Assembly (NCBI GenBank): GCA_019689675.1
Contig: JADGGZ010000013.1
Location: forward strand, 1 to 33,237
Length of the DNA: 33,237 bases
DNA from: Rhodospirillales bacterium
GTDB lineage: Bacteria; Pseudomonadota; Alphaproteobacteria; ATCC43930; CGMCC-115725
Direction of reading: 5' to 3'
Positions 2,451 through 19,037 of this stretch are shown here, in pieces. Below the pieces are notes generated by a model that did no database searches, was not told where the DNA came from, and saw only the letters and a list, made by a program, of their open reading frames with translations. The translations under genes were made by a program, and so were the position numbers. The stretch's first letter is position 1. Each line of letters opens with the position of its first letter.

Positions 2451-2767
2451 GGAAGCCCCTCGCGCAGGGTTCGGACCAGCCACGCGGCCTCCTCCGGCGT
2501 CACCGCGAAGCGCCACGGCGGCATCGCGGTGCCGGGCCTGCCGTCGACGATCGCCTCGACGAGCGTCTCGTCCGTGCGTTCGGCGAGGCGCTCGGGCACC
2601 AGCGCGGGACCGAGCCCGCCCTTCATCGTCAGCCCGTGGCAGGAGCCGCAATCCTGCTTCAGAAGGTGAAGGAGCTCGGCCTGGCGCGCCGGCCCCGGCT
2701 CGGCCGCCCACGCCGCCGCGGTGCTCGCGGCGAGCGCGAGGGCGAGCGCCGCGGCGATCCTAGGCAC
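2447..2767 (-). CDS. nirC: NirC-type periplasmic monoheme cytochrome c
   Basis: This is a small class I c-type cytochrome of 106 residues. A signal peptide (about residues 1-22, ending AAAWAAE) is followed by the heme-binding CGSCH motif (C40, C43, H44) and a late Met in GTAMPPW (M82), the likely sixth ligand. NirC is known as an electron carrier to cytochrome cd1 and in heme d1 maturation. The GTG start (2765-2767) lies inside the last codons of nirE (8-base overlap); the frame is open far upstream, so the start rests on the signal peptide and overlap pattern. NirM (cytochrome c551) is the alternative, but position between nirE and nirF matches nirC in Paracoccus-type operons. Confidence 0.88.
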   Translation of the reverse strand: MPRIAAALALALAASTAAAWAAEPGPARQAELLHLLKQDCGSCHGLTMKGGLGPALVPERLAERTDETLVEAIVDGRPGTAMPPWRFAVTPEEAAWLVRTLREGLP

Positions 2768-3542
2768 GGCGGGCCGGAGCGGCCGGCTCGTGCCGCTCCT
2801 CCTGATGCGAGGCCGGCAGCCTCGCGAGCGCGGCAACGCGGCCGATGATGACGAGCACGGGCGAGGCGAGACGCGCGGCCGCGACCGCACCCGGCAGGTC
2901 GGCGAGCGTCGCGCGGCAGATCTGCCGCTGCGGCGTCGTCCCGTTCGCGATCGCAGCGGCCGGCGTTGTCGCCGGCAGCCCCGCCGCGACGAGCCGCGTC
3001 GCGATCTCGCCGAGATTGCCGAGCCCCATGTAGACGACGAGCGTGGTGTCGGGATCGGCAAGGCTTTGCCAGTTGAGATCGAGCGCCTCGCCGGCACGGC
3101 AATGCCCGGTGACGAAGCGCAGCCCCGTGGCGAGCCCGCGATGCGTGAGCGGGATCCCGACCTCGGCCGCGCAGCCCGCTGCGGCGGTGATGCCGGGCAC
3201 GATCTCGCAATCGACGCCGTGCGCGGCGAGATACTCCGCCTCCTCGCCGCCGCGCCCGAAGACGAGCGGGTCTCCGCCCTTGAGGCGGACGACGCGCCGC
3301 CCCGGCACGGCGAGACGGACCAGGAGCTCGTTGATCTCGTCCTGCTGCAGCGTGTGGTTGGAGGTGGCTTTTCCGACGAAGATGCGCGCCGCGCCCTTGG
3401 GCACCAATTCCATGATCTCGGGCGCGACGAGCCGGTCGTAGACGACGACGTCGGCTTCTCTGAGGAGCCGCGCCGCCTTCAGCGTCAGAAGCTCGGGATC
3501 GCCCGGGCCGGCACCGACGAGATGAACCTTGGGACGCTTCAT
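2760..3542 (-). CDS. nirE: Uroporphyrinogen-III C-methyltransferase (NirE)
   Basis: SAM-dependent methylation of uroporphyrinogen III to precorrin-2, the entry into siroheme and heme d1. The 260-residue product starts MKRPKVHLVGAGPGDPELLT and has the family landmarks VVVYDRLV, VRLKGGDPLVFGRGGEE and PLTHRG, ending after a GRVAAL segment. It is a stand-alone SUMT without the CysG dehydrogenase/ferrochelatase domain. Placement in a nir operon makes it NirE rather than a cobalamin CobA, although the chemistry is identical. It follows nirS across 69 bases holding a strong hairpin, and its stop overlaps the nirC start. Confidence 0.93.
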   Translation of the reverse strand: MKRPKVHLVGAGPGDPELLTLKAARLLREADVVVYDRLVAPEIMELVPKGAARIFVGKATSNHTLQQDEINELLVRLAVPGRRVVRLKGGDPLVFGRGGEEAEYLAAHGVDCEIVPGITAAAGCAAEVGIPLTHRGLATGLRFVTGHCRAGEALDLNWQSLADPDTTLVVYMGLGNLGEIATRLVAAGLPATTPAAAIANGTTPQRQICRATLADLPGAVAAARLASPVLVIIGRVAALARLPASHQEERHEPAAPARRA

Positions 3543-3568
3543 CTTGGGGGCTCCCCCCGAGCCGCCGT

Positions 3569-3598
3569 GCGGGCGGGACGGCTCGCCGCTCCGCCCGC
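3569..3598 (-). terminator. Hairpin between nirS and nirE (attenuator or processing site)
   Basis: A perfect 8-base inverted repeat (3569-3576 with 3591-3598) encloses a further CGGC/GCCG pair, giving a very stable GC stem-loop in the nirS-nirE gap. There is no U-run after it on the minus strand, so full intrinsic termination is unlikely. Partial readthrough or protection of the nirS message is inferred, which would let the reductase be made in excess of the heme d1 enzymes. Confidence 0.55.
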
Positions 3599-3611
3599 CG
3601 GCGCCCCGGCG

Positions 3612-5411
<1,800 letters not shown>

Positions 5412-5432
5412 TCACGGCGTCGGGTCACGTCT

Positions 5433-5446
5433 TTGAGATGGCGCAA
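5433..5446. promoter_or_regulatory. FNR/NnrR-type operator between nirS and nirI
   Basis: The sequence TTGAG-ATGG-CGCAA keeps the invariant TTG-N8-CAA core of the CRP/FNR family consensus TTGAT-N4-ATCAA. It lies in the 129-base divergent gap between nirS and nirI. If bound as a class II site (centre at -41.5), the nirS transcript would begin near 5398, with a weak GAGGAT as its -10 element and a 44-base leader. For nirI the same geometry would start transcription almost at its GTG. The binding protein (NnrR, Dnr, Nnr or FNR) is not in this window. Confidence 0.6.
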
Positions 5447-5483
5447 TGACGCGCGCGGATGAAAAACCGATTCATCCGTTCCC

Positions 5484-7562
5484 GTGAGCGTGGTTGCGGC
5501 ATGGCGGCGATCGGTCGCGGTACTGTTCGCGGCGCTGACGCTGCTTGCACAACCGCTCCCGGCGCGCGAGCTGCCCGGCCCCGACGAGATCGCCGACATC
5601 TTCCCCGGCGCGACGCGAATCGAGCCGCCGTCGGGCGAGCCGCCCGCCGCGCGCGTGCTGAGCGGCGAGCGGCTCCTCGGCTGGCTCTTCTACAGTCACG
5701 AGACGGTGCGCTCGACCGGGTTCTCCGGGCGTCCGCTCGACGTGCTCGTCGGCCTCTCCGCGGACGGGACGATCGCCGGCGCGCGACTCGTCGAGCATCA
5801 CGAGCCGATTCTCGCGATCGGCATCGACGAGGCGCGGCTCGCCGCCTTCATCGCGCAGTTCAAGGGGCGTTCGATCGCCGAGCCGCCGCGCGTCGTGGCC
5901 GGCGGGGGTCCCGGCGCGATCGACGCCATCAGCGGCGCCACGATCAGCAGCATCGTCCTCGACGACGCGATCCTGAGGTCTGCGCGCGCGGTGGCGCGCA
6001 GCCGCGGCCTTCTCGGCGCCAAGGCCGGCGCACTCGACCTCGAAAGCTTCGCGCCGCTCGACTGGTCCGCCCTCGTCGCGGAAGGCTCGATCGCTCAGCT
6101 CCGCATCGACGGCGCGACGCTGCAGCGGAGAATGCCGGAAGCGGAGTCCGGGCTTCCGCCGGACGGGACCTTCGCCGAGCTCTACCTCGCGCCTCTCGCG
6201 CCGGCGCGAATCGGGCGCAACCTTCTCGGCGACCGCGAGTACGCACGGCTCGTCGCGGAGACGCCCGAAGGCGCGACGCCCATTCTCGTCGCCGGGCGCG
6301 GGCTCTACTCCTTCAAAGGCACGAGCTTCGCGAGAACCGGCGTCTTCGACCGCGTGCAGATCGTGCAGGGGGCGCGCAGCATCGCCCTCGGCGCGGCCGA
6401 GCACCGGCGCCTCGACAGGCTCGCCGTCGCCGGCGCGCCGGAGCTGCGCGAGCTCGCGCTCTTCACCCTGCCGCCCGAAGCGGCGCTCGACATCGCGGAT
6501 GATTGGCGGCTCGAGCTTCTCGTCGCCATGCCGCGGCGCGGCGGCGGCGAGTCGACCGCCGTCTTCTCGCTCCCGTACCGGCTGCCCGGCCTCTACCGTT
6601 CTGCAGCGGCGCTGCCCGAGCCCGCATCGCTGTGGACCGAGGTCTGGAAGGAGCGGTCGCCGCGCATCGCGCTCCTCGCGCTCCTCCTCGTGACGCTCGC
6701 CGCGATTCTCGTCTTTCAGGACTGGATCGTGAAGCGGCCTGGCTTCTACACGCGGCTTCGCACGGGCTTTCTCGTCGTCACCCTGCTCTGGCTCGGCTGC
6801 TGGGCCGGCGCGCAGCTTTCGGTGATGAACGTTCTCACCTTCGTCAATGCGCTCCTGACCGGGTTCCGCTGGGACTTCTTTCTCCTCGACCCCATGCTCT
6901 TCATCCTGTGGAGCTTCGTCGCTCTGGCGATGCTGTTCTGGGGTCGTGGCGTCTTCTGCGGCTGGCTCTGCCCGTTCGGCGCGCTGCAGGACCTCATCGC
7001 GCGGGCCGCCAAGCGGCTCGGGCTTCGCCAGATCCGGCTTCCGTTCCTCCTGCACGAGCGGCTCTGGCCGCTGAAGTACATCGCCTTCGTGGGCCTCCTG
7101 GCGATCACGCTCGGATCGCTCGAGGCGGCGCAGCCTTGGTCGGAAATAGAGCCGTTCAAGACGACCATCGTCCTGAAGTTCGCGCGCGCGTGGCCCTTTG
7201 TCCTCTATGCTGTCGTGCTTCTCGCGGCCGGCCTCTTCATCGAGCGCTTCTTCTGCCGCTATCTCTGCCCGCTCGGCGCCGCGCTCGCGCTCCCCGCCCG
7301 CCAGCGGCTCTTCGAGTGGCTGAAGCGGAAGCGCCAATGCGGCACGGAGTGCCAGATCTGCGCCGCGCAGTGCCCTGTGCAGGCGATCCACCCGACAGGA
7401 CAGATCAATCCGAGCGAGTGCATCCACTGCCTCGGCTGCCAGAAGCTCTACTACGACGACACGACCTGCCCGCCGCTGATCGAGCGGCGCAAGCGTCGCG
7501 AGGCGAGGCGGGCGCGCACCGTCGCGGTCATCGACGCGCCTCGGAACGCGCCCTCGCTCTGA
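5484..7562 (+). CDS. nirI: NirI (NosR/NirI family flavin-polyferredoxin membrane protein)
   Basis: NosR/NirI proteins are membrane electron-transfer proteins needed for expression or activity of the linked denitrification enzyme. The 692-residue product has a signal-like first helix (residues 8-27) and a periplasmic FMN-binding domain with DAISGAT. That fits the ApbE flavinylation pattern Dxx(S/T)GAT, making T153 the expected covalent FMN site. About five to six membrane helices follow (from about 395 to 600), with the loop motifs CGWLCPFG (C492, C496) and CRYLCPLG (C591, C595). A C-terminal pair of 4Fe-4S motifs follows (CQICAAQCP from C623, CIHCLGC). GTG at 5484 is the first possible start after an in-frame TGA at 5460. 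NosR is the alternative; adjacency to nirS, divergent as in Paracoccus, favours NirI. Confidence 0.88.
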   Translation: MSVVAAWRRSVAVLFAALTLLAQPLPARELPGPDEIADIFPGATRIEPPSGEPPAARVLSGERLLGWLFYSHETVRSTGFSGRPLDVLVGLSADGTIAGARLVEHHEPILAIGIDEARLAAFIAQFKGRSIAEPPRVVAGGGPGAIDAISGATISSIVLDDAILRSARAVARSRGLLGAKAGALDLESFAPLDWSALVAEGSIAQLRIDGATLQRRMPEAESGLPPDGTFAELYLAPLAPARIGRNLLGDREYARLVAETPEGATPILVAGRGLYSFKGTSFARTGVFDRVQIVQGARSIALGAAEHRRLDRLAVAGAPELRELALFTLPPEAALDIADDWRLELLVAMPRRGGGESTAVFSLPYRLPGLYRSAAALPEPASLWTEVWKERSPRIALLALLLVTLAAILVFQDWIVKRPGFYTRLRTGFLVVTLLWLGCWAGAQLSVMNVLTFVNALLTGFRWDFFLLDPMLFILWSFVALAMLFWGRGVFCGWLCPFGALQDLIARAAKRLGLRQIRLPFLLHERLWPLKYIAFVGLLAITLGSLEAAQPWSEIEPFKTTIVLKFARAWPFVLYAVVLLAAGLFIERFFCRYLCPLGAALALPARQRLFEWLKRKRQCGTECQICAAQCPVQAIHPTGQINPSECIHCLGCQKLYYDDTTCPPLIERRKRREARRARTVAVIDAPRNAPSL

Positions 7563-7681: not shown

Positions 7682-7855
7682 ATGGACCAGCAATCGGCGA
7701 AACACGAGAACGACGCTGACGACGGCAAGGTGCCGACGATGCAGCGCGTCCTCGACAACCCGTTCCTGCTTCTCTTCCTCGGGGTCACGATCCCGACCGT
7801 CCTCTACATCATCTGGGGCGTCATCGAGATCGCCCAGATCCCGATCGCGAAATAA
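7682..7855 (+). CDS. 57-residue single-helix membrane peptide, probable small NOR subunit
   Basis: The product MDQQSAKHENDADDGKVPTM... has an acidic, hydrophilic N-terminus of about 25 residues and one strongly hydrophobic helix (FLLLFLGVTIPTVLYIIWGVIEIAQI, about residues 28-53), ending IPIAK. A purine-rich GGAAG stretch precedes the ATG, and norS follows 38 bases after the stop on the same strand. Single-helix small subunits are known beside subunit II in B-type oxidases (subunit IIa of ba3) and in other heme-copper enzymes. That is the inferred role; no catalytic residues are visible. The 119-base gap after nirI and the site at 7578 suggest it is the first gene of its own transcript. Confidence 0.7.
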   Translation: MDQQSAKHENDADDGKVPTMQRVLDNPFLLLFLGVTIPTVLYIIWGVIEIAQIPIAK

Positions 7856-7893: not shown

Positions 7894-8448
7894 ATGGCAA
7901 TCCATCCACCGCAACAGCGCATCTGGTGGCGCGAGCCGATCGAGAAGATGGAGGTGGCGTGGATCGCCATCGCCTTCGTCTGGGGTCTGGTGATGTTCTT
8001 CACCATGATCGCCTGGCACTTCTGGGGCCAGCAGAACCTCGCCAACGAAGCGTATCGGGTCCAGCCCGAAGCCTACGTCGCGAAGGTCGAGGCGATGACC
8101 GAGCAGTACAAGGTCGGCGAGGAAGGCGACACCGGCATCGAGGTGGTGCATCCGCCGGCAGGCAGCGACGTCTACCTCCTGGCGCGGCTGTGGCAGTGGT
8201 GGCCCGTGCTCGAGCTCGAGAAGGGCAAGACGTACCGCCTGCACCTCTCCTCCGCCGACTGGCAGCACGGCTTCTCGCTCCTGCCGACCAACATCAACAT
8301 CCAGGTGCATCCCGGCTACGAGATGGTGGTCACGGTGACGCCGACGGAGACCGGCGAGTTCAGCATCGTCTGCAACGAGTACTGCGGCATCGGGCACCAC
8401 ACCATGTCGGGCAAGATCCGCGTCGTCGAAAGCAAGGGAGGCAAGTGA
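7894..8448 (+). CDS. norS: CuA-containing subunit II of an sNOR-type NO reductase
   Basis: This is the electron-entry subunit of a heme-copper enzyme. The 184-residue protein has one N-terminal membrane helix (about residues 22-44, VAWIAIAFVWGLVMFFTMIAWHF) and a periplasmic cupredoxin domain. That domain carries a full CuA set: H125, then C160-x-E162-x-C164-x3-H168-x2-M171 (CNEYCGIGHHTM). It is short, with a single helix as in B-type oxidase subunit II rather than the two of A-type. GGAGGA lies 3 bases before the ATG. The stop overlaps the norY start (TGATG). Gene order CuA subunit, catalytic subunit, SenC matches the norS-norY-senC clusters described in ammonia oxidisers. A cytochrome c oxidase subunit II is the alternative; the partner's active site argues for NO reduction. 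Confidence 0.82.
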   Translation: MAIHPPQQRIWWREPIEKMEVAWIAIAFVWGLVMFFTMIAWHFWGQQNLANEAYRVQPEAYVAKVEAMTEQYKVGEEGDTGIEVVHPPAGSDVYLLARLWQWWPVLELEKGKTYRLHLSSADWQHGFSLLPTNINIQVHPGYEMVVTVTPTETGEFSIVCNEYCGIGHHTMSGKIRVVESKGGK

Positions 8449-10166
8449 TGGTCGCGGTAACCGGAGTCGACGTCGGTCGGAAGCCGCTCGCGCCTTCCTT
8501 CCGGACCTGTGCCGTCACGGGCCTCCGCGTCGAGGCGAACGCCGAGCGCCTTATCAAGGCGAACGCCGTCGCCGGGGTTCTCTTCCTCGCGCTCGGCGGT
8601 CTCTTCGGCCTGCTCGTCGCGCTGACGCGGTGGCCGGCCATACATCTCCTTCCGGCCGAATGGTTCTATCTGATCCTCACCGCGCACGGCGCGAACGTGC
8701 TGCTGTTCTGGATCATCTTCTTCGAGATCGCGGTCCTCTATTTCGCGTCGACGACGCTCCTGAACTGCCGCCTGCCCGCGCCCAAGGTGGCATGGGCGGG
8801 ATTCGCGCTCATGGTGATCGGCGCCGTCGTCACCGACATCGCCGTCTTCCAGGGCGAATCGACGGTGATGTTCACCTCCTACCCGCCGATGATGGCGAAG
8901 CCGCATTTCTATCTCGGCCTCATCCTCTTCGCCGTGGGAGCGCTCGTCGGCTGCGGCATCTTCTTCGCGGCGCTCGTCGTCGCAAAGGAGGAGAAGACCT
9001 ATAACGGGTCGATTCCGCTCGTCACCTTCGGCGCGCTGACCGCGGCGATCATCGCCGTGTTCACGATCGCCTCGGGAGCCATCATCCTCATCCCGACCTT
9101 CCTCTGGTCGCTCGGCTACATCAGCCACATCGACCCGCTCATGTACAAGGTCGTGTGGTGGGCGATGGGCCACTCCTCGCAGCAGATCAACGTCTCTGCG
9201 CACGTCGCCATCTGGTACGCGATCGCGGCCATCGTGCTCGGCGCGAAGCCGCTCTCCGAGAAGGTGAGCCGCACGGCGTACCTCATGTACATCCTCTTCC
9301 TCCAGCTCGCCTCGGCGCACCACCTCCTGGTCGAGCCCGGCATCAGCTCGGAATGGAAGATCGTCAACACCAGCTACTTCATGTATCTCGCCGTGCTCGG
9401 CAGCATGATTCACGGCATGACCGTGCCCGGCGCGATCGAGGCGGCGCAGCGCAAGCGCGGCTTCAACAAAGGCGTGTTCGAGTGGCTGCGCAAGGCGCCG
9501 TGGAGCAATCCCGCCTTCGCCGGCATGTTCCTCAGCCTCGTGATGTTCGGCTTCATCGGCGGGATCTCGGGCGTGGTGCTCGGCACCGAGCAGCTCAACA
9601 TCCTCATGCACAACACGATCTACGTGCCGGGACACTTCCACGGCACGGTCGTGGCCGGCACGACGCTCGCCTTCATGGCGGCGACCTATCTTCTCATCCC
9701 GCTCTTCTTCAAGCGCGAGCTCGTACTGAAGAAGCTCGCGCAGTGGCAGCCCTATCTCTTCGGCATCGGCGCCGGCGGGATCTCGCTCTTCATGATGGGC
9801 GCGGGCACCCTCGGCGTTCCGCGGCGCCATTGGGACATCACGTTCAGCGACGCGCCGATGGGCACGGAGTTCTCCGCCGCCGCCTATCTCATGCTGGGGC
9901 TGAACGGGATCTGCGCCGTGCTCGCGGCGGCTGGCGGCATCGCCTACATCCTCGTCGTCGTCGGCTCGATCCTCTTCGGGAAGCGGATCCCCGACGGGCA
10001 GCCCAAGCCGGCCTCGGCGCCTCAGCCCGCGGTGACGCAGTACGGCAACGCCGGCACGCTGCATCTCCCGGGGACGCTGGTGCTGGTCGGCATCTTCTTC
10101 CTGTCCTTCGTCCTCTACTACTACGTCAACTGGAAGTACCTCGCGCAGCTCTGGCCGCTGCGCTGA
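8448..10166 (+). CDS. norY: Catalytic heme-copper subunit I of an sNOR-type NO reductase
   Basis: This is a 572-residue polytopic membrane protein (about 12-13 helices) that keeps the heme-copper superfamily ligands. H80 (TAHG, helix II) and H398 would bind the low-spin heme, H396 (GHFH, helix X) the high-spin heme, and H242, H291 and H292 (helices VI and VII) the active-site copper or metal. The Tyr normally four residues after the first metal His (H-x3-Y), needed for O2 reduction, is absent: the helix VI motif reads GHSSQQIN, with Q246 at that place. Loss of this Tyr plus the nir setting and SenC neighbour support NO reduction to N2O. The glutamates of canonical NorB are not evident, so it is not cNOR or qNOR. 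The ATG overlaps the norS stop. Confidence 0.82.
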   Translation: MVAVTGVDVGRKPLAPSFRTCAVTGLRVEANAERLIKANAVAGVLFLALGGLFGLLVALTRWPAIHLLPAEWFYLILTAHGANVLLFWIIFFEIAVLYFASTTLLNCRLPAPKVAWAGFALMVIGAVVTDIAVFQGESTVMFTSYPPMMAKPHFYLGLILFAVGALVGCGIFFAALVVAKEEKTYNGSIPLVTFGALTAAIIAVFTIASGAIILIPTFLWSLGYISHIDPLMYKVVWWAMGHSSQQINVSAHVAIWYAIAAIVLGAKPLSEKVSRTAYLMYILFLQLASAHHLLVEPGISSEWKIVNTSYFMYLAVLGSMIHGMTVPGAIEAAQRKRGFNKGVFEWLRKAPWSNPAFAGMFLSLVMFGFIGGISGVVLGTEQLNILMHNTIYVPGHFHGTVVAGTTLAFMAATYLLIPLFFKRELVLKKLAQWQPYLFGIGAGGISLFMMGAGTLGVPRRHWDITFSDAPMGTEFSAAAYLMLGLNGICAVLAAAGGIAYILVVVGSILFGKRIPDGQPKPASAPQPAVTQYGNAGTLHLPGTLVLVGIFFLSFVLYYYVNWKYLAQLWPLR

Positions 10167-10179
10167 GAAGGGTGGAGCG

Positions 10180-11046
10180 ATGACCGCGTTCCTCGGCGAT
10201 ATCTGCTCGGTCCTGAAGCTCCGCATCGGAGCCGCCATCGCGCTGACCGCGGTCGCAGGGCTGGCGGTGACGCCGGGGCCCGCGGTCCCCGCCTGGAAAG
10301 TCGTCCTGCTCGCCGCGGCGGTGCTCGCCGCCTCGGCGAGCGCCGGCGCCTTCAACCAGTACATCGAGCGCGGCACTGACGCGCTCATGAGGCGAACCCG
10401 GAACCGCCCCTTCGTCCGGGGCGCCTTCCGTGCCGGTCCGCTCTGGATCGCGGCGATCGCGCTCCTCCTTCTCGCCGGGGTCGGCGCGGCGGCCGCGGGG
10501 CTCGGGCTCGCGGCGGCGCTGCACGTCTTCCTCGGCGCCTTCTTCTACGGCGTCGTCTACACCGTCTGGCTGAAGCGCCGCACGGTGCTCAACATCGTCA
10601 TCGGCGGGCTCGCGGGCAGCTTCGCGGTGCTCGCCGGCGCCGCCACGGTCGACCCCATTCCCGGCCCCGTCCCGCTCCTCTTCGCCCTCACCCTCTTCCT
10701 CTGGACCCCGCCGCATTTCTGGAGCCTCGCGATGGGCGTGGAGGAGGACTACGCCGCGGCCGGCGTGCCGATGCTGCCGGTCGTGGTCGGCGACGCCGCC
10801 GCGTCCTGGATCATCCTCGGCCATACCGCCGCGCTGGTTGCCGTCTCGCTGCTGCCCGTCTTTTTCGGCCTCGGCCCCCTCTACGGGATCGCGGCGGCGA
10901 CCGGCGGCGGCTACTTCCTCTGGAAGAGCATCGCGCTCGTTCGCGCGCCGACCCGTAAATCGGCTATGGCGAATTTCCACGCCTCGCTCGTGCAGCTCTC
11001 GCTGCTCCTCGCGGGCGCCGGCGCCGCCGCCTGGAGCCCGCCATGA
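10180..11046 (+). CDS. cyoE: Protoheme IX farnesyltransferase (heme O synthase)
   Basis: This UbiA-superfamily enzyme adds a farnesyl group to heme B to make heme O. The 288-residue product has about eight to nine membrane helices. It shows the first Asp-rich motif in NQYIERGTDALMRRTRNRP and the conserved YTVWLKRRTVLNIVIGG and LWTPPHFWSLA segments of CyoE/CtaB. It starts 13 bases after norY and ends overlapping the SCO gene (ATGA at 11043-11046), so it belongs to the NO reductase operon. This suggests that the reductase, or an oxidase elsewhere in the cell, uses heme O or A; no CtaA (heme A synthase) is present here. Its length is at the short end for the family. Confidence 0.9.
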   Translation: MTAFLGDICSVLKLRIGAAIALTAVAGLAVTPGPAVPAWKVVLLAAAVLAASASAGAFNQYIERGTDALMRRTRNRPFVRGAFRAGPLWIAAIALLLLAGVGAAAAGLGLAAALHVFLGAFFYGVVYTVWLKRRTVLNIVIGGLAGSFAVLAGAATVDPIPGPVPLLFALTLFLWTPPHFWSLAMGVEEDYAAAGVPMLPVVVGDAAASWIILGHTAALVAVSLLPVFFGLGPLYGIAAATGGGYFLWKSIALVRAPTRKSAMANFHASLVQLSLLLAGAGAAAWSPP

Positions 11047-11918
11047 GCGCCCGCCGCGTCTTCGCCGCCGGATTGGCGCTCCTGCTCGGCTTCGCCTCCC
11101 CCGCGGTCCTTGCGCACGGCCATTCGGCGCCGAAGGCTGAGGCGACGGGCGAGAAGGCGCCCGCGCACGGCCGCTCGGCGGAGTCGCCGGGCTCGGAGAT
11201 CTTCGACGAGGCGAAGGCGCTCGCGACGAGCCAGGCCGCGATCGGTCGGACCGTCAGCGATCATGCCTTCCGCAACACGCGCGGCCAGACCGTGAAGTTT
11301 TCCTCCTATCTCGGCCGGCCGGTCGTGCTCAGCCTCATCTACACGAGCTGCGACCACACCTGTCCGCTCATCGTCGAGGGTATCGCGCGCGCGCTCGAGG
11401 CCGCCGACGGCGAGCTCGACCCGCGCGGCTACACCGTTCTGACGGTCGGGTTCGACACCAGGGTCGACACGCCCGCGCGCATGCGGCTCTATCAGTCCTC
11501 GCGCGGAATCACCCGGATCGGCTGGGAGTTCCTCAGCGCCGACGCCTCGACCATCGAGCGCCTCGCCGCCGAAACGGGGTTCCTCTACAAGCCGCGCGCC
11601 GGCGGGTTCGACCACCTCGCCCAGGTCACCCTCATCGACGCCGAGGGCCGCGTCTACCGTCAGGTCTACGGCGAGCAGTTCGCGACCGCCGACCTGGTCG
11701 AGCCGCTGCGACAGCTCGTCTACGGCCAGCACGAGGAAGCGACGCTCATCGGCTCTCTCGTCAATCGGGTCCGCCTCGTCTGCACCGTCTACGACCCCGC
11801 CTCGGGCCGGTACCGCTTCAGCTACGCCATCTTCTTCGAGATCGTGATCGGCGCGGCGAGCCTCCTCGCCGTCCTGATCTTCGGGATCCAGCTCTGGCGC
11901 CAGTCGAAGACGGCCTGA
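11043..11918 (+). CDS. senC: SCO1/SenC-family copper chaperone
   Basis: SCO proteins deliver or reduce copper for CuA centres. The 291-residue product has a signal peptide (residues 1-24), a His-rich linker (AHGHSAP, APAHGRS) and a thioredoxin-like fold with copper ligands C103 and C107 (SCDHTCP) and H191 (FDHLAQ). Unlike most SCO proteins it also has a C-terminal membrane anchor (about residues 263-285, IFFEIVIGAASLLAVLIFGI). It overlaps cyoE by 4 bases and is followed 31 bases later by the cytochrome b fusion gene. Its position after norSY matches the known senC in sNOR clusters, so assembly of the NorS CuA site is the inferred job. Confidence 0.9.
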   Translation: MSARRVFAAGLALLLGFASPAVLAHGHSAPKAEATGEKAPAHGRSAESPGSEIFDEAKALATSQAAIGRTVSDHAFRNTRGQTVKFSSYLGRPVVLSLIYTSCDHTCPLIVEGIARALEAADGELDPRGYTVLTVGFDTRVDTPARMRLYQSSRGITRIGWEFLSADASTIERLAAETGFLYKPRAGGFDHLAQVTLIDAEGRVYRQVYGEQFATADLVEPLRQLVYGQHEEATLIGSLVNRVRLVCTVYDPASGRYRFSYAIFFEIVIGAASLLAVLIFGIQLWRQSKTA

Positions 11919-11949
11919 GCGGCACGACGAGCAAATCGAGGAGTATGAG

Positions 11950-13518
11950 GTGAACGCGCTCCGCCGCCCCGTCCGCGCCTTCTTCGCCGCTCTCGAGGGG
12001 CTCTTCGACCGGATCTTCGGCCCCGAGCAGAACCCGCTCGCCCATCTCGGCGCGCTCGGCTTCTTCTTCTATTGGATCGTGGTCGCGACCGGTGTGCATC
12101 TTTATATCGGCTTCGACACGTCGGTCGCCGGCGCCTACGATTCGGTGGAGCATCTGAGCCGCTCCCCCTGGTTCCTCGCCGGGGTCTCGCGCAGCCTCCA
12201 CCGCTACGCGTCTGACGCCCTCGTCGTCGTCATGTTCGTGCATATCCTGCGCGAGTTCGGCCTCGACCGCTGCCGCGGCGTCCGCTGGTTCAGCTGGGTC
12301 GTGGGGATGCCGATCATCGTCTTCGTCTACGCCTCCGGCATCAGCGGCTACTGGCTCGTGTGGGACCGGCTCGCGCAATACGTCGCGATCGCCAGCACCG
12401 AGTGGCTCGACTGGCTGCCGATCTTCGGCGAGCCGATCGCCCGCAACTTCCTGACGCGCGGCAGCCTCGACGACCGCTTCTTCACGCTCCTCGTCTTTCT
12501 GCACATCGCGGTGCCGCTGATCCTCGTCTTCGTGCTGTGGATCCATCTGCAGCGCATCAGCCGGCCCGACATCAACCCGCCGAAGCGGCTCGCCGCCGGA
12601 ACCGCCGCGATGCTGCTCGGGCTGTCGCTCGTCTACCCGGCCACGAGCCAGGGTCCCGCCGATCTCGGCACGGTGACGAGCATCGTGCGGCCGGACTGGT
12701 TCTATCTCCCGCTCTATCCGCTCGTCGATTTTCTCTCCGCCGGGTCGGTGTGGGCGATCGTGGCCGGCGCGACGCTCGTGATGCTCGCCATCCCGTGGCT
12801 GCCGCCGCTCCGCCGGCCGCCGGCCGCGGTCGTCACGCTCGATCTCTGCAACGGCTGCGGTCGCTGCGCCGAGGACTGCCCCTACAGCGCGATCTCGATG
12901 GCGCCGCGCAGCGACGGGAAGCCGTTCGAGGTCGAGGCCGTGGTCGATCCCGATCTCTGCGTCTCCTGCGGCATCTGCGTCGGCGCGTGCCCGACGTCGA
13001 CGCCGTTCCGCAGCGATCCGAAGCTGCCGACGGCGATCGACGTTCCAGAGCCCGCGCTTCACGCGCTCCGCGACGCGACGCGGGAGGCGAGCCGGCGCTG
13101 CGTCGGCGATCGCCGCATCCTCGTGTTCGGATGCCTTCACAGCGCTGCCGCGCTTCAGCCGGAGAGCGCGGACACGGCCGTCGTTCCCTTGCCCTGCGTC
13201 GGGATGCTGCCGCCCTCGTTCATCGACTACGTGTTGAGCCGCGATCTCGCCGACGGCGTGTTCCTCGCCGGCTGCGCCGACAGCAGCAGCTACAACCGGC
13301 TCGGCCCACGCTGGACGAGAGCGAGGCTGGCCGGGGAACGGGACCCGCGGCTCCGCCAGCGCGTGCCGCGCGACCGGCTCGCCGCCGCCTGGCTCGCGCC
13401 GCGCGACCGGAAGCGCCTCGCTGCCGAGATCGACGCGTTCCGCGCGCGGCTTCCGAAGCGGGCGCCGGCGTCGTCCGCCCGCCCGGCGCTCGTCGCCGAG
13501 AGGGAGCCCGCACAATGA
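11950..13518 (+). CDS. Cytochrome b - 2[4Fe-4S] ferredoxin - MvhD-like fusion
   Basis: This 522-residue protein has three joined parts. Residues about 1-290 are a bc1-type cytochrome b: heme pairs H84/H98 and H185/H199, each H-x13-H, and PDWFY (248-252) where bc complexes carry PEWY at the quinol site. Residues about 296-352 are a double-cluster ferredoxin (C300, C303, C306, C310P and C337, C340, C343, C347P). Residues about 388-475 resemble MvhD/FlpD, the iron-sulfur delta subunit of methyl-viologen hydrogenases, with C395, PC416VG and GC442AD. The start is GTG at 11950; the ATG at 11945 runs into TGA. Its place in the NO reductase operon suggests quinone-linked electron transfer. The direction and the partner of the MvhD-like end are unknown. 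No Rieske protein or cytochrome c1 is encoded nearby. Confidence 0.85.
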   Translation: MNALRRPVRAFFAALEGLFDRIFGPEQNPLAHLGALGFFFYWIVVATGVHLYIGFDTSVAGAYDSVEHLSRSPWFLAGVSRSLHRYASDALVVVMFVHILREFGLDRCRGVRWFSWVVGMPIIVFVYASGISGYWLVWDRLAQYVAIASTEWLDWLPIFGEPIARNFLTRGSLDDRFFTLLVFLHIAVPLILVFVLWIHLQRISRPDINPPKRLAAGTAAMLLGLSLVYPATSQGPADLGTVTSIVRPDWFYLPLYPLVDFLSAGSVWAIVAGATLVMLAIPWLPPLRRPPAAVVTLDLCNGCGRCAEDCPYSAISMAPRSDGKPFEVEAVVDPDLCVSCGICVGACPTSTPFRSDPKLPTAIDVPEPALHALRDATREASRRCVGDRRILVFGCLHSAAALQPESADTAVVPLPCVGMLPPSFIDYVLSRDLADGVFLAGCADSSSYNRLGPRWTRARLAGERDPRLRQRVPRDRLAAAWLAPRDRKRLAAEIDAFRARLPKRAPASSARPALVAEREPAQ

Positions 13519-14024
13519 GCGCGCGCTTGCTCCAATGGGCCGGCCAGGCCGCAGCCTACGCGGGCTTCGCGGCGTTCGTCGGCTATTTCTCGAGCGCGCC
13601 CGCCTACACGCATCTCGATCCGGCCATGGCGCTCGTCAAGGTCAGCTTTTCGCACGGCGCGCCCCGTCAGGCCGCCTGCCGCGAGCGTTCGGCGGAGGAG
13701 CTCGCGAAGCTGCCGCCGACCATGCGCCGCAAGATGGATTGCCCCCGCGTGCGCCCGACCGTCTCGCTCGAGCTCCTCGTCGACGGCATACCGCTGATCG
13801 CGGAATCCTTGCCGCCGAGCGGGCTTTCGAAGGACGGGCCGTCGCGCATTTACCGCACGATTCCCGTGACGGCGGGCACGCACACGCTGACCGCACGCCT
13901 GCGCGACACCATCCGCGACGACGGGGAATGGGACTACGAGCGCACGATCACGGCCGAGCTCGCGCCCGCCCAGAACTTCGTCGTCGATTTCCGGGCCGAC
14001 GCGGGGGGCTTCCTTTTCCGGTGA
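13515..14024 (+). CDS. Membrane-anchored protein of unknown function in the NOR operon
   Basis: I do not recognise this 169-residue protein. One N-terminal membrane helix (about residues 7-27) is followed by an extracytoplasmic region with two cysteines (C55, C76) about twenty residues apart, which could form a disulfide. A beta-rich stretch with a TVSLELLVDG strand, a YRTIPVTAGTHTLTARL turn and a VDFRADAGGFLF end then resembles an immunoglobulin- or carboxypeptidase-regulatory-like sandwich. Its ATG overlaps the stop of the cytochrome b fusion (ATGA), so it is translated with it. It may correspond to the uncharacterised orf1 that follows senC in sNOR clusters of ammonia oxidisers, but that link is a guess from gene order. 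Confidence 0.75.
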   Translation: MSARLLQWAGQAAAYAGFAAFVGYFSSAPAYTHLDPAMALVKVSFSHGAPRQAACRERSAEELAKLPPTMRRKMDCPRVRPTVSLELLVDGIPLIAESLPPSGLSKDGPSRIYRTIPVTAGTHTLTARLRDTIRDDGEWDYERTITAELAPAQNFVVDFRADAGGFLFR

Positions 14025-14034
14025 GGGCGGATCC

Positions 14035-14439
14035 ATGACGCTCATCGAATGGCGCGACAGCTTCAAGACCGGAATCGAATCGGTGGATTTCGAGCACGCC
14101 GAGCTCGTCGCGCTCATCAATCGTCTCTACGACCGGCTCGGCGCCGCGAGCGGCCGCCGCGAGGCCGTCGCCGCGTTTCTCGGCGAGCTCCACGACGGCA
14201 TCGCCGCGCATTTCGCGCTCGAGGAAAAGCTCATGCGCAAGCACCGCTATGCCGGGCTTCCCGAGCACAAGGACGATCACGAGAAGCTCCTCGACGAGAT
14301 CCGGGACATCATGGAGGAGCACGAGCGCGGCGTCTTCGACGACGCGTCCGACCGGCTCGCCGAGCGGCTCGACATCTGGTTTTCGCGACACTTCAACACT
14401 TTCGACCGCCGTCTGCACGAGGCGGTGTCCGGCGGCTAG
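14035..14439 (+). CDS. Bacteriohemerythrin
   Basis: This is a single-domain, 134-residue hemerythrin with the full set of diiron ligands: H21, H59 and E63 (H-x3-E), H78 and H82 (H-x3-H), H119 and D124 (H-x4-D). Such proteins bind O2 and in some cases NO or iron reversibly in the cytoplasm. It starts 10 bases after the previous gene, so it probably shares the NO reductase transcript. Oxygen or NO scavenging for the oxygen-sensitive denitrification machinery is the inferred role. No signal peptide or fused signalling domain is present. Confidence 0.92.
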   Translation: MTLIEWRDSFKTGIESVDFEHAELVALINRLYDRLGAASGRREAVAAFLGELHDGIAAHFALEEKLMRKHRYAGLPEHKDDHEKLLDEIRDIMEEHERGVFDDASDRLAERLDIWFSRHFNTFDRRLHEAVSGG

Positions 14440-14535
14440 TTTCGCCCGGCGCCGCGCGGCGGCCTGCGACCTTCGGCGTCCTGGCATCCGCCAGGGAACC
14501 GCCGGAGACTGAACGCGGTTCGGGAGGTGGCGACC

Positions 14536-15429
14536 ATGGCGACGCTGACGCGGCATCCTGCCCAGCACCCGCGGTCCACCGGCGAGCTGCTGCACCTCGC
14601 GGCGACTCTCGACGAACGGGCCGCTGCGCGATACAGGGTTCTCGCCAGGACGATGCGTGAGCGCGGCGAACGCGACCTCGCGCGGGTGTTCGCCCTTCTC
14701 GCCGACGTCGAAGAGAGGCATCGCACGCGGCCCGCCACCGGCGGGCGGGCCGAAGTGCCCGGCATAGACGCGCCGCCGCCCGCCGAGACCGGCCTTCCGG
14801 AGCCCTTCGACGAGGAGACCGCCGCCTCGGCGACGCTGACGCCCTATCGCGCGCTCGCGCTCGCCGTGCGCTTCGAAGAAAGCTGCTTCGCCTACTACAG
14901 CTACATCGCCTCGGAGGCCAAGTCCGCGGAGGTGCGCACGCTCGCCGAATCGCTGGCCAAGGAGAAGCTCGATCAGGCGGCGCTGCTGCGGCGCAGGCGC
15001 CGACGCGAGTTTCGTAGAGAGGGTCGCGCCAAGCCACGCGAGCCGTTGCCGCGGACGCTCGCGGAGCTGCGCGCGCTCGCCGCGCGCGAGGCGCGGGCGG
15101 CGGCTTCCCTCCACCGGGCGCTCGCCGAAAGCCTTGCCGCCGAGGGACAGGAGCGCGTCGCCGACGCCTTTCTCGCCGTCGCACGCGAGGAGGAAAGGGA
15201 GGCGTGGAAGGGGCCCGCGCCGACAGGCCGCCCGGAGCCGCCGGAAGCGCCGCCCACGGTCACGGCCGGATTGCGCGTCCTCGAGGCCGCCTTCGAGCGC
15301 TACTCCGAGATCGCCGAGCGCGCGGCCGACGAGGCGCTCCTCGCCGAGGCGCAGCGTCTCGCCGAGGCCGTGCTGCGTCGGCTCGCCTCGACCCGGGCGA
15401 CGATCGCCGCGGCGAAGGCGTCCGACTGA
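14536..15429 (+). CDS. Ferritin-like/rubrerythrin-like protein with four helix-hairpin repeats
   Basis: The 297-residue protein is almost entirely helical and lacks a signal peptide. Four copies of a roughly 47-residue helix hairpin can be read at about residues 17-63, 105-151, 176-222 and 245-291, with the pattern LA..LE..AA.RY..LA..M...G...LA..F..LA..E..H. The first copy holds ferritin-like metal residues (E27, E59-x2-H62). The second has E114/E115 and E143-x2-D146. The third and fourth are degraded. Diiron binding by the first pair is plausible. ATG at 14536 is preferred over GTG 14527 because GGGAGG lies 8 bases before it. It follows the hemerythrin gene by 96 bases. The precise function is unknown; peroxide or NO detoxification is a guess from the family. 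Confidence 0.75.
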   Translation: MATLTRHPAQHPRSTGELLHLAATLDERAAARYRVLARTMRERGERDLARVFALLADVEERHRTRPATGGRAEVPGIDAPPPAETGLPEPFDEETAASATLTPYRALALAVRFEESCFAYYSYIASEAKSAEVRTLAESLAKEKLDQAALLRRRRRREFRREGRAKPREPLPRTLAELRALAAREARAAASLHRALAESLAAEGQERVADAFLAVAREEEREAWKGPAPTGRPEPPEAPPTVTAGLRVLEAAFERYSEIAERAADEALLAEAQRLAEAVLRRLASTRATIAAAKASD

Positions 15430-15441
15430 CGAAAGGCGGCG

Positions 15442-16353
15442 CTACTCGTAAGTCCCGAGCGCCGCCTCGACGAAGGCTCGGCCGTCGCGGCCGTGAACGA
15501 AGCCGTTGGCGAACACGGCCTCGGGAGCGAGCTTTTCGAGCCGCGCCATCGCTTCGGCGCCCGCGATCCGTCCGTCGAGCGTAGCGCGGAACGTCTCCGC
15601 GACCGCGACCATGTCGGCCCGCATGGGCACGAGGCGGAACACGCCGACGCCGAAGCCGCGGAGCGTTCCGAGCTCGCAGACGAGGTTGCACCAGGTATAG
15701 GAGAGCGTCTGGAGGCCGTTGACGGCGAGGAACGGCTCCCCCTCGAGCGTCCTCACGACCATCCCTTCGGGGTCGCGCGCGCAGACGAACTGACAGCCGT
15801 CCTTGTGCAGCCGGTGCGCGCGGGCATGGAAGCATCGCGCCGAGATCGCGAGCGGCAGCCGGCCCCATGCGATGACCTCGAGCTCGGCCAGAGCTTCCTT
15901 CGCGATCGGCGCGATCGACCGTGCCGGCAGCTCGGCGGGAAGGCAGGCCCGGATCGCGCCCCGCCGCGCGAAATAGCCGAGCGTCGCCGCGTTGTAGACG
16001 TTGACGAAGGGACCGACGACGTGCGGCTTGCCCTCGAGCGCCGCGAGAATTCCGACGTCGTTGCCTTCGACGAGAAGCTCCTCCTGTGCGGCGAGCTCGC
16101 GCGCCTCGCGCCGCTCCCGCTCGCTGGTGACGAGCGCGAGGCTGGAGAGGACGACGGTCTTGCCGGCGGATTTCAGCCGCTCGATCACCTCGCCGAGATG
16201 CGGCGCGAAGAAGGGAGCGCGCTTCGAGCAGACCACTTCGCCGACATGGACGATGTCGAAAGGCGCCTCGTCGGCGATCCGGAAATAGAAATCGCGCAGC
16301 GTCGCAGCGTCCCAATGGAAGAAAACCGGGCCGAGCGAGAGGCGTGCCGTCAC
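15442..16353 (-). CDS. ubiV: UbiV, O2-independent ubiquinone hydroxylation protein
   Basis: UbiV is a U32-family protein that forms a complex with UbiU and hydroxylates the ubiquinone ring without O2. The 303-residue product has four cysteines placed like the 4Fe-4S ligands of E. coli UbiV: C42, then C174, C187 and C191 (C-x12-C-x3-C, in ARCFHARAH and GCQFVCARD). The start is the GTG at 16351-16353, overlapping the ubiU stop (GTGA), with GGAGG 5 bases upstream. It ends 12 bases from the convergent ferritin-like gene. Databases often call such proteins peptidase U32, but the linkage to ubiU and ubiT fixes the role. Confidence 0.92.
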   Translation of the reverse strand: MTARLSLGPVFFHWDAATLRDFYFRIADEAPFDIVHVGEVVCSKRAPFFAPHLGEVIERLKSAGKTVVLSSLALVTSERERREARELAAQEELLVEGNDVGILAALEGKPHVVGPFVNVYNAATLGYFARRGAIRACLPAELPARSIAPIAKEALAELEVIAWGRLPLAISARCFHARAHRLHKDGCQFVCARDPEGMVVRTLEGEPFLAVNGLQTLSYTWCNLVCELGTLRGFGVGVFRLVPMRADMVAVAETFRATLDGRIAGAEAMARLEKLAPEAVFANGFVHGRDGRAFVEAALGTYE

Positions 16354-17330
16354 CGCCACCTCCGCTGGTATGCGCCGGCGGTCTCGCGCTGCCCTTCCGC
16401 CATTTGGCGCAGCTCTGCGACGTCCGCCTCGCGCGCCGCCCCCGCTTCGCCGTCGAGGAGGCGACGGAACGCGCCCACGACGCTGCGAACATAGGCGCGG
16501 CCGCGCTGACGTCCCTCGATCTTGAGGGCGGCGACTCCTGCGGCGCGGAGCTCGGGCAGAATCGCCGCCGTGTTGAGGCTGGTCGGCTCCTCGAAGAGAT
16601 AGCTCGCCTCGCCGCCGGCGACGAAGCGCCCCTTGCAGAGGGTGGGATATCCCGCCGGCTCGTCGGCGGGAAAGCGGTTGATGACCGACCCGGCGAGCCG
16701 CGAGACGGTCTCGCCGTTCTCCTCCGAATAGCTGACATGGCTCGCCGGCGAGCAGGCGCCGACCGTGTTGGGCGACTGACCGGTGAGATAGGACGAGAGG
16801 GAGCAGCGGCCTTCCGCCATCGGGCACATGCCGCCGAAAGCGAAGACCTCGGTCTCGACCGGGATCTGCGGCGTCAGCGCGGCGATGTCCGGGACGGTGA
16901 GGACACGCGGCAGGACGACGCGGCGCACCCCGAAAGCCTCGTGATAGAAGCGTATCGCATCGGCGTGCGACGCAGCCGCCTGAACCGACAGGTGGAGCCG
17001 CAGCCGGGGATGGCGGCGCGCCGCGTAGTCGAGAAGGCCGATATCGGAAAGAATGACCGCGTCGACGCCGAGCGCGGCGGCATCGTCGATCGCGCGGTGC
17101 CATATCGCCTCGTCGCCCGCGCGGGCGAAGGTGTTGACGGCGAGGTAGAGCTTGCGCCCGTGCCGGCGGACATGGGCGAGCCCCGCCGCGAGCTCGTCGC
17201 GGCTGAAGTTCAATCCGGGAAAGTTCCGCGCGTTGGTCTCGTCGCGAAAGCCGACATAGACGGTATCGGCTCCGGCCTCGATCGCGGTCCTGAGAGCGGC
17301 GGGCGTTCCCGCCGGACAGACGAGCTCCAT
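16350..17330 (-). CDS. ubiU: UbiU, O2-independent ubiquinone hydroxylation protein
   Basis: This is the U32-family partner of UbiV in anaerobic ubiquinone biosynthesis. The 326-residue product has MELVCPAGTPAALRTAIEAG at its N-terminus. Its four 4Fe-4S ligand cysteines are C169 and C176 (GGMCPMAEGRCSL), C193 (VGACSPASH) and C232 (TLCKGRF), the same spacing as reported for E. coli UbiU. The ATG at 17328-17330 starts 11 bases after ubiT. In a denitrifier this supplies ubiquinone when O2 is missing. The pair UbiU/UbiV shares a cytoplasmic complex with the lipid-binding UbiT. Confidence 0.94.
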   Translation of the reverse strand: MELVCPAGTPAALRTAIEAGADTVYVGFRDETNARNFPGLNFSRDELAAGLAHVRRHGRKLYLAVNTFARAGDEAIWHRAIDDAAALGVDAVILSDIGLLDYAARRHPRLRLHLSVQAAASHADAIRFYHEAFGVRRVVLPRVLTVPDIAALTPQIPVETEVFAFGGMCPMAEGRCSLSSYLTGQSPNTVGACSPASHVSYSEENGETVSRLAGSVINRFPADEPAGYPTLCKGRFVAGGEASYLFEEPTSLNTAAILPELRAAGVAALKIEGRQRGRAYVRSVVGAFRRLLDGEAGAAREADVAELRQMAEGQRETAGAYQRRWR

Positions 17331-17341
17331 CGGCCTCTCCC

Positions 17342-17845
17342 TCAACGCCTCGATCCGGCGGCCGCCTCGGCGAGGGTGGCGAGATGACGGACGGGCGGGG
17401 GAAGGCTCGCGACAAGATCGTCGAGAAGGTCGATCTCCTCGCCGTCCGTGGCGTTGCGCAGCGCGAGCACGGCGCTCGTGTCGCCCTCGAACCGGAGTTG
17501 GCGGTCGAAGAACGCAGCGTCGCCGTCGATCCGCCCCTCGAGGAGATCGAGCAGCATCGGCAGCGTGCCGCTCAGCACCGCGACCACCGCCCGCTCGCGG
17601 CCGAGCTCGACGACGCGGAGCCGCGGCGGCTTCGGCGGAAGCAGGAGCTGAAGCAGGAAGCCGCGCGGCAACCCGACCGGCGCGAAGAGGAACGACGCCC
17701 CCGCCCACGGCGCCATGCGCTCGAAGACCCCGGGATGACGGCGCGCCATCATCGCGGCGAGGGCGTCGAACACCGGCTGCACGAGCGCGACCGGGGCCGC
17801 TCGCAGGCCCAGCTCCAGCGCCGCGATCACGATACGTCTTCTCAC
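17342..17845 (-). CDS. ubiT: UbiT, SCP2-domain lipid carrier for anaerobic ubiquinone synthesis
   Basis: UbiT binds ubiquinone intermediates through an SCP2 sterol-carrier domain. The 167-residue product has a hydrophobic N-terminal region and then the SCP2 core, with VVELGRERAVVAVLSGTLPMLLDLLEGRIDGDAAFFDRQL and FEGDTSAVLALRNATDGEEI; the F-x-R-x-L-x-x-x-GDT pattern is typical. The start is taken as the GTG at 17845; a second in-frame GTG at 17830 is possible and neither has a good Shine-Dalgarno. An FNR-like site lies 36 bases upstream, so a class II promoter would start the message about at this GTG (leaderless or nearly so). First gene of ubiTUV. Confidence 0.9.
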   Translation of the reverse strand: MRRRIVIAALELGLRAAPVALVQPVFDALAAMMARRHPGVFERMAPWAGASFLFAPVGLPRGFLLQLLLPPKPPRLRVVELGRERAVVAVLSGTLPMLLDLLEGRIDGDAAFFDRQLRFEGDTSAVLALRNATDGEEIDLLDDLVASLPPPVRHLATLAEAAAGSRR

Positions 17846-17936: not shown

Positions 17937-19037
17937 ATGCGAGGGCATCAACCGTTCTTTCTCGGCGCCGCGCTCTTGGCGATCGTCTCCATGGCTCTCT
18001 GGCTCGCGGCGCTCGAGGGCAGCATGCAAATGCCGTCCGGCGCCCCGGCGGCGCACTGGCACGCGCACGAGATGCTGTTCGGCTACACCGTCGCGGTCCT
18101 CGCCGGGTTTCTGCTCGGCGGCGGCGCCGGATGGCAGCCGCCGCTCCTCTTTCTCGTCTGGCTCGCCGGCCGCATCGCCGCCGTAGCGGGGCCGGCCGAG
18201 CTTTCCGCCGCGCTCGACCTCGCGCTCTTGCCGGCCTTGGCGCTCCTCCGCACCCCACCGCTCTGGCGCGGCTTCAAATGGCCGACGGTCGGCTTCCTTC
18301 CGCTGCTCTTGATGCTGTTCGTCGCCGAGCTCCTCTGGCACCTCGACGCGCTCGGGCGTTTCCCGGGCGGCGCGGCTGCGGGCACGCGGCTGGCGGTCGA
18401 TCTCTTCACGCTGATGATCGTCGTCATGGCCGGCCGGCTCGTCCCCGGCTACACCCGCGCGATGCTGATCCCGGTGCGGACGCCCAAGGACCCGGGCCGG
18501 GAACGGGCGTCGGTCGGGATCGCCGTCGCGCTCCTCGTCTTCGACCAGGTCGACTGGAGCGCGGGCGTCGCCGCCGCTGCCCTCGCGCTCGGCGCGCTCC
18601 AAGCCTGGCGGCTTGCCGGGTGGCGCACGCGCGACGTCCTGAGCCGCCCCATTCTGCTCGTCCTTCACCTCGGCTACGGCTGGCTCGTCTTCGGCCTCTT
18701 CCTGCGCGGCCTCGCCGAGCTCACCGCGCTGATCGCGCCGGCGGACGCCGTTCACGCGACTACGGTCGGCGCGATCGGCATGCTCACGCTCGGCATGATG
18801 GGCCGCCTCGCCCGAACCCACGCCCGGCGCGCGCTCGCCGCCGCCCCAGCGGACATGCTCTCTTACGGCGCGATGTTCGCAGCGGCGTTCGCGCGGAGCC
18901 TTCTTCCGGCGCTCGTGCCCGAGGCGCGGCGCGGCGCCTTGCTCGCCGCCGGCCTCCTCTGGTCCCTCGCCTTCGCGCTCTTCCTGTGGGCGCACGGCGG
19001 GACGCTCGTCCGCGCGCGGCCACGCCGCGAGGACTGA
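17937..19037 (+). CDS. nnrS: NnrS family heme- and copper-containing membrane protein
   Basis: NnrS proteins are polytopic heme/copper membrane proteins of the NO regulon that relieve nitrosative stress. The 366-residue product has about ten to twelve membrane helices and the family motif HWHAHEMLFGY near residues 40-50, followed by MAGRLVPGYTRAML and the late GMLTLGMMGRLARTHARR segment. The ATG follows a gap with an FNR/NnrR-type site, the classical control of nnrS. It is transcribed away from ubiTUV. Slightly shorter than many homologues (near 400) but with both conserved ends. Confidence 0.93.
   Translation: MRGHQPFFLGAALLAIVSMALWLAALEGSMQMPSGAPAAHWHAHEMLFGYTVAVLAGFLLGGGAGWQPPLLFLVWLAGRIAAVAGPAELSAALDLALLPALALLRTPPLWRGFKWPTVGFLPLLLMLFVAELLWHLDALGRFPGGAAAGTRLAVDLFTLMIVVMAGRLVPGYTRAMLIPVRTPKDPGRERASVGIAVALLVFDQVDWSAGVAAAALALGALQAWRLAGWRTRDVLSRPILLVLHLGYGWLVFGLFLRGLAELTALIAPADAVHATTVGAIGMLTLGMMGRLARTHARRALAAAPADMLSYGAMFAAAFARSLLPALVPEARRGALLAAGLLWSLAFALFLWAHGGTLVRARPRRED

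Follow-up and report, generated by a model that had tools for sequence, protein, structure and literature searches.

A cytochrome b-ferredoxin-MvhD fusion that accompanies eNOR in Proteobacteria: a candidate inner-side electron-input port

A single gene that joins a diheme cytochrome b, a two-cluster ferredoxin and an MvhD domain within an NO reductase operon raises the question of where that reductase obtains its electrons. The gene lies in a 33,237-nt stretch of DNA from a Rhodospirillales bacterium, the whole of which is called the window here. MvhD is familiar as a linking protein of methanogens, acetogens and sulfate reducers; eNOR occurs commonly in the denitrifying Proteobacteria that produce N2O. 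Each domain of the fusion is already known. Neither the architecture nor its tie to eNOR, nor a cytosolic electron supply to NO reductase, was found in the literature searched, outside which lay the main 2024 biochemical eNOR paper (Murali et al.), and the same literature gave no answer as to the in vivo reductant of eNOR. The available portions of three published accounts describe the eNOR operon (the ba3-a1 oxidase operon of Degli Esposti) as that of an NO reductase family with a CuA subunit, a Gln active site and SCO, and these portions do not mention a cytochrome b-ferredoxin-MvhD gene (PMC8756737, PMC6431628, PMC8879329). The relevant features of the window are as follows.

1293-7559: nirN (−), cobA (−), nirS (−) and, on the + strand, a NosR-family gene; the eNOR operon follows directly
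7682-7855, +: small single-TM ORF of 57 aa, probable eNOR accessory subunit, preceding subunit II
7894-8448, +: eNOR subunit II, CuA; CNEYCGIGHHTM
8448-10166, +: eNOR subunit I with the COX1 fold; active site HSSQQ, in which Gln replaces Tyr
10180-11046, +: CtaB, heme o synthase
11043-11918, +: SCO-family copper chaperone
11950-13518, +: cytochrome b - 2x[4Fe-4S] ferredoxin - MvhD fusion, 522 aa, GTG start
11950-12801, +: membrane domain of the fusion (aa 1-284), predicted to have six helices equivalent to A-F of cytochrome b; heme ligands H84, H98, H185 and H199
12820-13026, +: two-cluster ferredoxin of the fusion, aa 291-359, Cys 300, 303, 306, 310, 337, 340, 343 and 347
13057-13515, +: MvhD/FlpD domain of the fusion, Cys 395, 416 and 442, Ser at 447
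13515-14024, +: ORFx, single-helix anchor, predicted periplasmic beta-sandwich protein
14035-14439, +: bacteriohemerythrin, syntenic in 87 of 100 loci
14527-15429, +: rubrerythrin-like protein, after bacteriohemerythrin
15442-17845, −: probable ubiT/ubiU/ubiV (anaerobic ubiquinone synthesis; U32-family and UbiT-like genes)
17937-19037, +: nnrS, following the ubiT/U/V-like genes

The NO reductase of the window is of the eNOR type as judged from its sequence, by the Gln active site and the CuA-bearing subunit II. In the portion of the literature available, eNOR is defined by Gln at the active-site tyrosine position, where sNOR (NorSY) has Asn (PMC8756737). The motif of subunit I is GHSSQQIN in the window, and H-x-S-Q-Q is found in all 90 readable loci (4 others being unreadable); an identity as NorSY/sNOR is ruled out because the active-site residue is Gln and not Asn. 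An earlier note on this DNA had placed the fusion inside an NO reductase operon of the norSY type; the conserved, dedicated association with an NO reductase holds, and the enzyme is eNOR (HSSQQ) instead. The surroundings of the operon are a denitrification neighborhood, in which the NosR-family gene may be NirI; no nosZ was seen beside it. Small ORFs like the 57-aa ORF precede COX2 in Defluviimonas, Thermus and Thermomicrobium plasmid loci. Bacteriohemerythrin is not essential, because several lineages have lost the gene. In the Defluviimonas locus, subunit I is annotated by NCBI as a cbb3-type oxidase and the fusion as a cytochrome b N-terminal domain protein; the cytochrome b-ferredoxin-MvhD gene provides a marker that tells proteobacterial eNOR operons from oxidases.

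The fusion is preceded by GAGGAG at 11938-11943, and its coordinates, residues and Pfam matches agree with the single frame of diheme cytochrome b, eight ferredoxin cysteines and MvhD that had been described earlier. Pfam places Cytochrome_B at aa 32-203 (E 2.6e-18, above the curated cut-off) and both Fer4 and Fer4_7 at aa 300-349 (Fer4 above its curated cut-off). Both histidine pairs, H84/H98 and H185/H199, are spaced by 14 residues as in bc1-type cytochrome b, and hydropathy gives six helices corresponding to A-F, with helices G-H missing; the soluble Fe-S/MvhD part that follows helix F should, from hydropathy and homology, face the cytoplasm. The AlphaFold model of the fusion (mean pLDDT 83.8, pTM 0.80; one row from a plasmid record was left out of the structure predictions) matches bc1 cytochrome b in Foldseek with probability 1.0 over about 285 residues. 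More than 110 independent loci, at 44-66% identity, show the same architecture, and these conserved copies rule out chance and an artefact of frame joining or assembly, including the sequencing-error join that the earlier note had considered. The four heme histidines and the eight ferredoxin cysteines do not vary among the complete copies of the MvhD form, of which there are more than 110 distinct ones. In some small genomes (G538 and G599, at loci L171 and L205, likewise G624 and G674) the fusion is duplicated in tandem.

Assignment of the C-terminal domain to MvhD is firm by profile comparison, as had been proposed. FlpD (= MvhD, PF02662) matches aa 408-501 of the fusion (E 9e-8, 32.6 bits against a cut-off of 22.3) and all 44 members of a diverse fusion alignment (best 2e-16), and the MvhD profile also matches the solved MvhD chains 9sw2_D (1.2e-12) and 5odc_D (1.9e-12). 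The cysteines attributed to this domain are present in the window at three of the four conserved positions (C395, C416 and C442), and the fourth is Ser447 (codon AGC, 13288-13290), a position occupied by Cys in 116 of 120 copies. Position 447 is Gly at loci L099 and L120, and position 442 is Gly at L052; to judge from these residues, the MvhD cluster seems to be dispensable or differently ligated in a few copies. All four MvhD cysteines are present in the copy of Bradyrhizobium sp. AUGA SZCCT0283 (L121). Within the class, any FlpD domain is found in 15 of 230 genomes, and in 14 of these 15, the genome of the window included, it is part of the cytochrome b fusion; MvhD is therefore almost exclusively eNOR-associated in the class, and its usual Hdr partner seems to be missing. 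The genome of the window has no second FlpD domain or HdrA2-MvhD match, on which ground an Hdr-MvhD partner there was rejected. Genes for hydrogenase, formate dehydrogenase or Hdr, which MvhD normally links according to the earlier note, are absent from the fusion locus and from the window, and the locus encodes no dehydrogenase for the docking face of MvhD.

Several known systems share parts of this architecture. The cytochrome b of bc1/b6f complexes has in common with the fusion PF00033, four histidines at 14-residue spacing, helices A-F and a Qo-like loop; in contrast, the fusion lacks helices G-H, has neither a Rieske protein nor cytochrome c1 as an operon partner, and continues after helix F into a soluble Fe-S/MvhD part. 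No Rieske or cytochrome c1/f domains were detected among the window genes scanned. The Qo-like motif is PDWFYL in the window (aa 248-253) and xDW[FY]Y in the family, with D249 and W250 invariant; a PEWY-type motif is absent, a difference that is not exclusive by itself, as genuine bc complexes with PDWY exist. The connection to the quinone pool drawn in the earlier note gains no support, as stated, from a locus in which Rieske/c1 partners are missing from the operon, the Qo motif is altered and helices G-H are absent. The best NCBIfam relatives of the membrane part are ExtP and ExtQ of selenite/tellurite operons (ExtP, 6.5e-26 over helices A-D; ExtQ, 2e-6 over E-F; both far below the equivalog cut-offs) but, unlike the fusion, these are two separate proteins with no ferredoxin-MvhD part and no NOR link. 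The C-terminal region of HdrA2 has the same ferredoxin-MvhD order, and fusion aa 291-504 align to HdrA2 570-771; the alignment is confined to the C-terminal part of the HdrA2 model, the fusion having neither the HdrA flavin domain nor HdrBC. HdrA2-sized proteins are present in some eNOR genomes. QmoABC, which comprises HdrA-type flavoproteins and an HdrE-type cytochrome b and is dedicated to APS reductase, likewise couples an MvhD-containing protein to a membrane cytochrome b, and on this general description it resembles the fusion.

The distribution of the fusion follows that of eNOR. A scan with one genome per species returned 538 relatives, and the best 80 of the 538 are from Alpha-, Beta- and Gammaproteobacteria. 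In a class sample of 385 genomes, the fusion is found in 24 and eNOR subunit I in 23, these being the same genomes except for G316, in which the fusion lies near a contig end. In a phylum sample of 398 genomes, the fusion is found in 28 of 29 further eNOR genomes; in the exception (G479) the contig ends just after SCO, before the expected fusion gene, and every other sampled eNOR genome has a cytochrome b of the fusion family. The fusion without eNOR is confined to five incomplete or fragmented MAGs, so that homologues are not independent of NOR clusters in most genomes; the earlier note had asked whether the fusion always travels with norSY, and its near-constant companion is eNOR instead. 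As far as the contigs extend, 100 loci (with some overlap between collections) preserve the order COX2-COX1-CtaB-SCO-fusion-ORFx-Hr. Phyla beyond Pseudomonadota were sampled poorly, through plasmids only; relatives of eNOR subunits I/II on Thermus and Thermomicrobium plasmids are about 45% identical and carry a GAQQ motif, no fusion lies within 8 kb of them, and eNOR can therefore work without it.

Ten eNOR genomes carry the fusion on a different contig or at a distance from eNOR, and the link is therefore more than gene order; among the unlinked loci examined, the fusion adjoins nirS/nirN in four. Pairwise distances of the fusion correlate with those of eNOR subunit I with r 0.89 (68 loci), compared with 0.51 for CtaB and 0.61 for SCO, both of which lie between subunit I and the fusion in the operon; the ten unlinked cases alone, a weak subset, give r 0.91 against a best shuffle of 0.90. 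NirS is found in 43 of 50 eNOR genomes examined, and it is ruled out as an obligate partner because the seven without a NirS match keep the fusion. The fusion module is very probably a dedicated partner of eNOR.

A natural replacement of the inner-side module bears on the direction of electron flow. In five eNOR genomes (G751, G832, G823, G807 and G785), probably betaproteobacterial, the cytochrome b carries, in place of the ferredoxin-MvhD part, a reductase of the BenC/MmoC type (Fer2-FAD-NAD(P)H), at these positions.

L207, 8640-10559, −: reductase-form fusion
L224, 7911-9800, −: reductase-form fusion
L225, 8097-10016, +: reductase-form fusion
L226, 9791-11638, +: reductase-form fusion
L227, 6593-8476, −: reductase-form fusion

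G751 has a second cytochrome b copy followed by Fer2, FAD-binding and NAD-binding domains, and the other four genomes came from a search among its relatives. Both MvhD and reductase forms are present in G751, G823, G807 and G785. G832 (complete, one contig) has the reductase form as its sole cytochrome b of the family, in the operon position of the MvhD form and followed by ORFx. The swap thus makes the inner-side Fe-S module the variable element, while eNOR, ORFx and the membrane part of the cytochrome b stay constant. The reductase module resembles MmoC and BenC and shares the Fer2-FAD-NAD order of BenC, MmoC and NqrF; unlike in these proteins, it is joined to a preceding diheme cytochrome b and encoded within eNOR operons. 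Reductases of the MmoC/BenC type oxidize NADH and pass the electrons on. That an NAD(P)H reductase can stand in for ferredoxin-MvhD suggests an electron donor in the cytosol, and not a route from quinone to ferredoxin like the one between the quinone pool and low-potential Fe-S carriers that the earlier note had suggested.

ORFx begins within the stop codon of the fusion (ATGA) and stays adjacent to it also where the fusion is unlinked from eNOR. It belongs to no Pfam family, and Foldseek returned no strong match for it, just a generic beta-sandwich resemblance. At locus L171 both conserved cysteines of ORFx are gone, and their joint loss in one lineage fits a disulfide rather than a cofactor. 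A redox role for ORFx was rejected on these grounds, given that no family or strong structural match was found and that the paired cysteines fit a disulfide.

In the reading that we prefer, and hold with about as much belief as doubt, the fusion and ORFx form an inner-side (inward) electron-input port serving eNOR. Cytosolic reducing equivalents would reach the MvhD domain via a putative soluble dehydrogenase; from the MvhD [2Fe-2S] cluster the electrons would travel via both [4Fe-4S] clusters to heme bH and then cross the membrane to heme bL, at its periplasmic face. The P-side acceptor that we infer would most simply be CuA subunit II of eNOR, next to ORFx, or otherwise a quinone. In the reductase form, the same cytochrome b would take electrons directly from NAD(P)H via the fused BenC/MmoC-type reductase; what such reductases do suggests the inward direction, and the module would presumably serve NO reduction itself rather than assembly. 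The fuller proposal, that a diheme cytochrome b with interchangeable ports, together with ORFx, gives cytosolic electrons directly to NO reductase, bypassing quinone, the bc1 complex and cytochrome c, and that MvhD works here without heterodisulfide reductase, is tentative and somewhat doubtful. Several points run counter to an inward port. Quinone may still bind at the altered Qo-like motif, in which D249 and W250 are invariant; the window MvhD lacks one conserved Cys, and there is no dehydrogenase at the locus. Characterized CuA enzymes receive their electrons from cytochrome c, and the organism of the window encodes another cytochrome b (L002); eNOR may therefore not need the module.

Outward flow through the same carriers, the reading nearest to that of the earlier note, is unlikely. 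Quinol would be oxidized on the periplasmic side, one electron going to eNOR and the other via bL, bH and the Fe-S/MvhD part to an acceptor in the cytosol, so that NO reduction would drive a bifurcation of quinol electrons; bc1-type heme spacing and the invariant D249-W250 pair of the Qo-like loop are consistent with it, as is the MvhD of Sporomusa ovata, which joins membranes to soluble Hdr-type complexes (PMC9430772). Against this route stand an operon with no Rieske protein or cytochrome c1 and the natural swap, which brings in a BenC/MmoC-type module from a family normally oxidizing NADH. For ubiquinol to reduce NAD(P)+ or ferredoxin against the membrane potential, with a CuA-level acceptor, is energetically unfavorable, and the outward route looks poor on that count too. 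Also quite unlikely is a cytosolic donor:quinone oxidoreductase that would supply eNOR through the quinone pool, the bc1 complex and cytochrome c; this would agree with the cytochrome b architecture and with the ubiT/U/V-like genes downstream (15442-17845), but it leaves unexplained why the fusion tracks one NOR subtype so tightly and diverges with it.

Two further readings dispense with electron flow during turnover. We consider it very unlikely that the module provides electrons for maturation or maintenance, that is, for assembly of the heme or copper site of eNOR: the fusion adjoins CtaB and SCO, the MmoC/BenC-type reductases normally work for oxygenases, and the conversion of heme o to heme a needs electrons, but fusion divergence tracks subunit I and not CtaB or SCO, a number of fusion-bearing loci lack CtaB (the operon gene most often missing across the 100 loci), and a diheme, three-cluster wire would be elaborate for a maturation factor. 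Extremely improbable is a role in NO or redox sensing and detoxification, in which the Fe-S domain would react with NO and modulate the enzyme with no catalytic electron flow; bacteriohemerythrin and the rubrerythrin-like gene downstream would suit it, as would the Cys loss in the window MvhD, whereas strict conservation of the eight ferredoxin cysteines and four heme histidines, and natural replacement by a catalytic NAD(P)H reductase, argue for electron transfer.

The inward port remains our preferred reading. A fixed partner of eNOR that reaches into the cytosol makes the question of its electron source directly testable, and the fusion may explain NO removal without passage through the bc1 complex. 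The fusion also extends MvhD into denitrifying Proteobacteria, minus its usual partner.

The five reductase-form loci also encode a second, divergent COX1-like protein, at these positions.

L207, 5127-6512, −: divergent COX1-like protein
L224, 5988-7394, −: divergent COX1-like protein
L225, 11884-13545, +: divergent COX1-like protein
L226, 2574-3998, −: divergent COX1-like protein
L227, 8495-9955, −: divergent COX1-like protein

The histidine pair of helix VII is missing from these proteins, although they retain HxH and one CuB-type His; by its residues the protein looks like a degenerate heme-copper oxidase.
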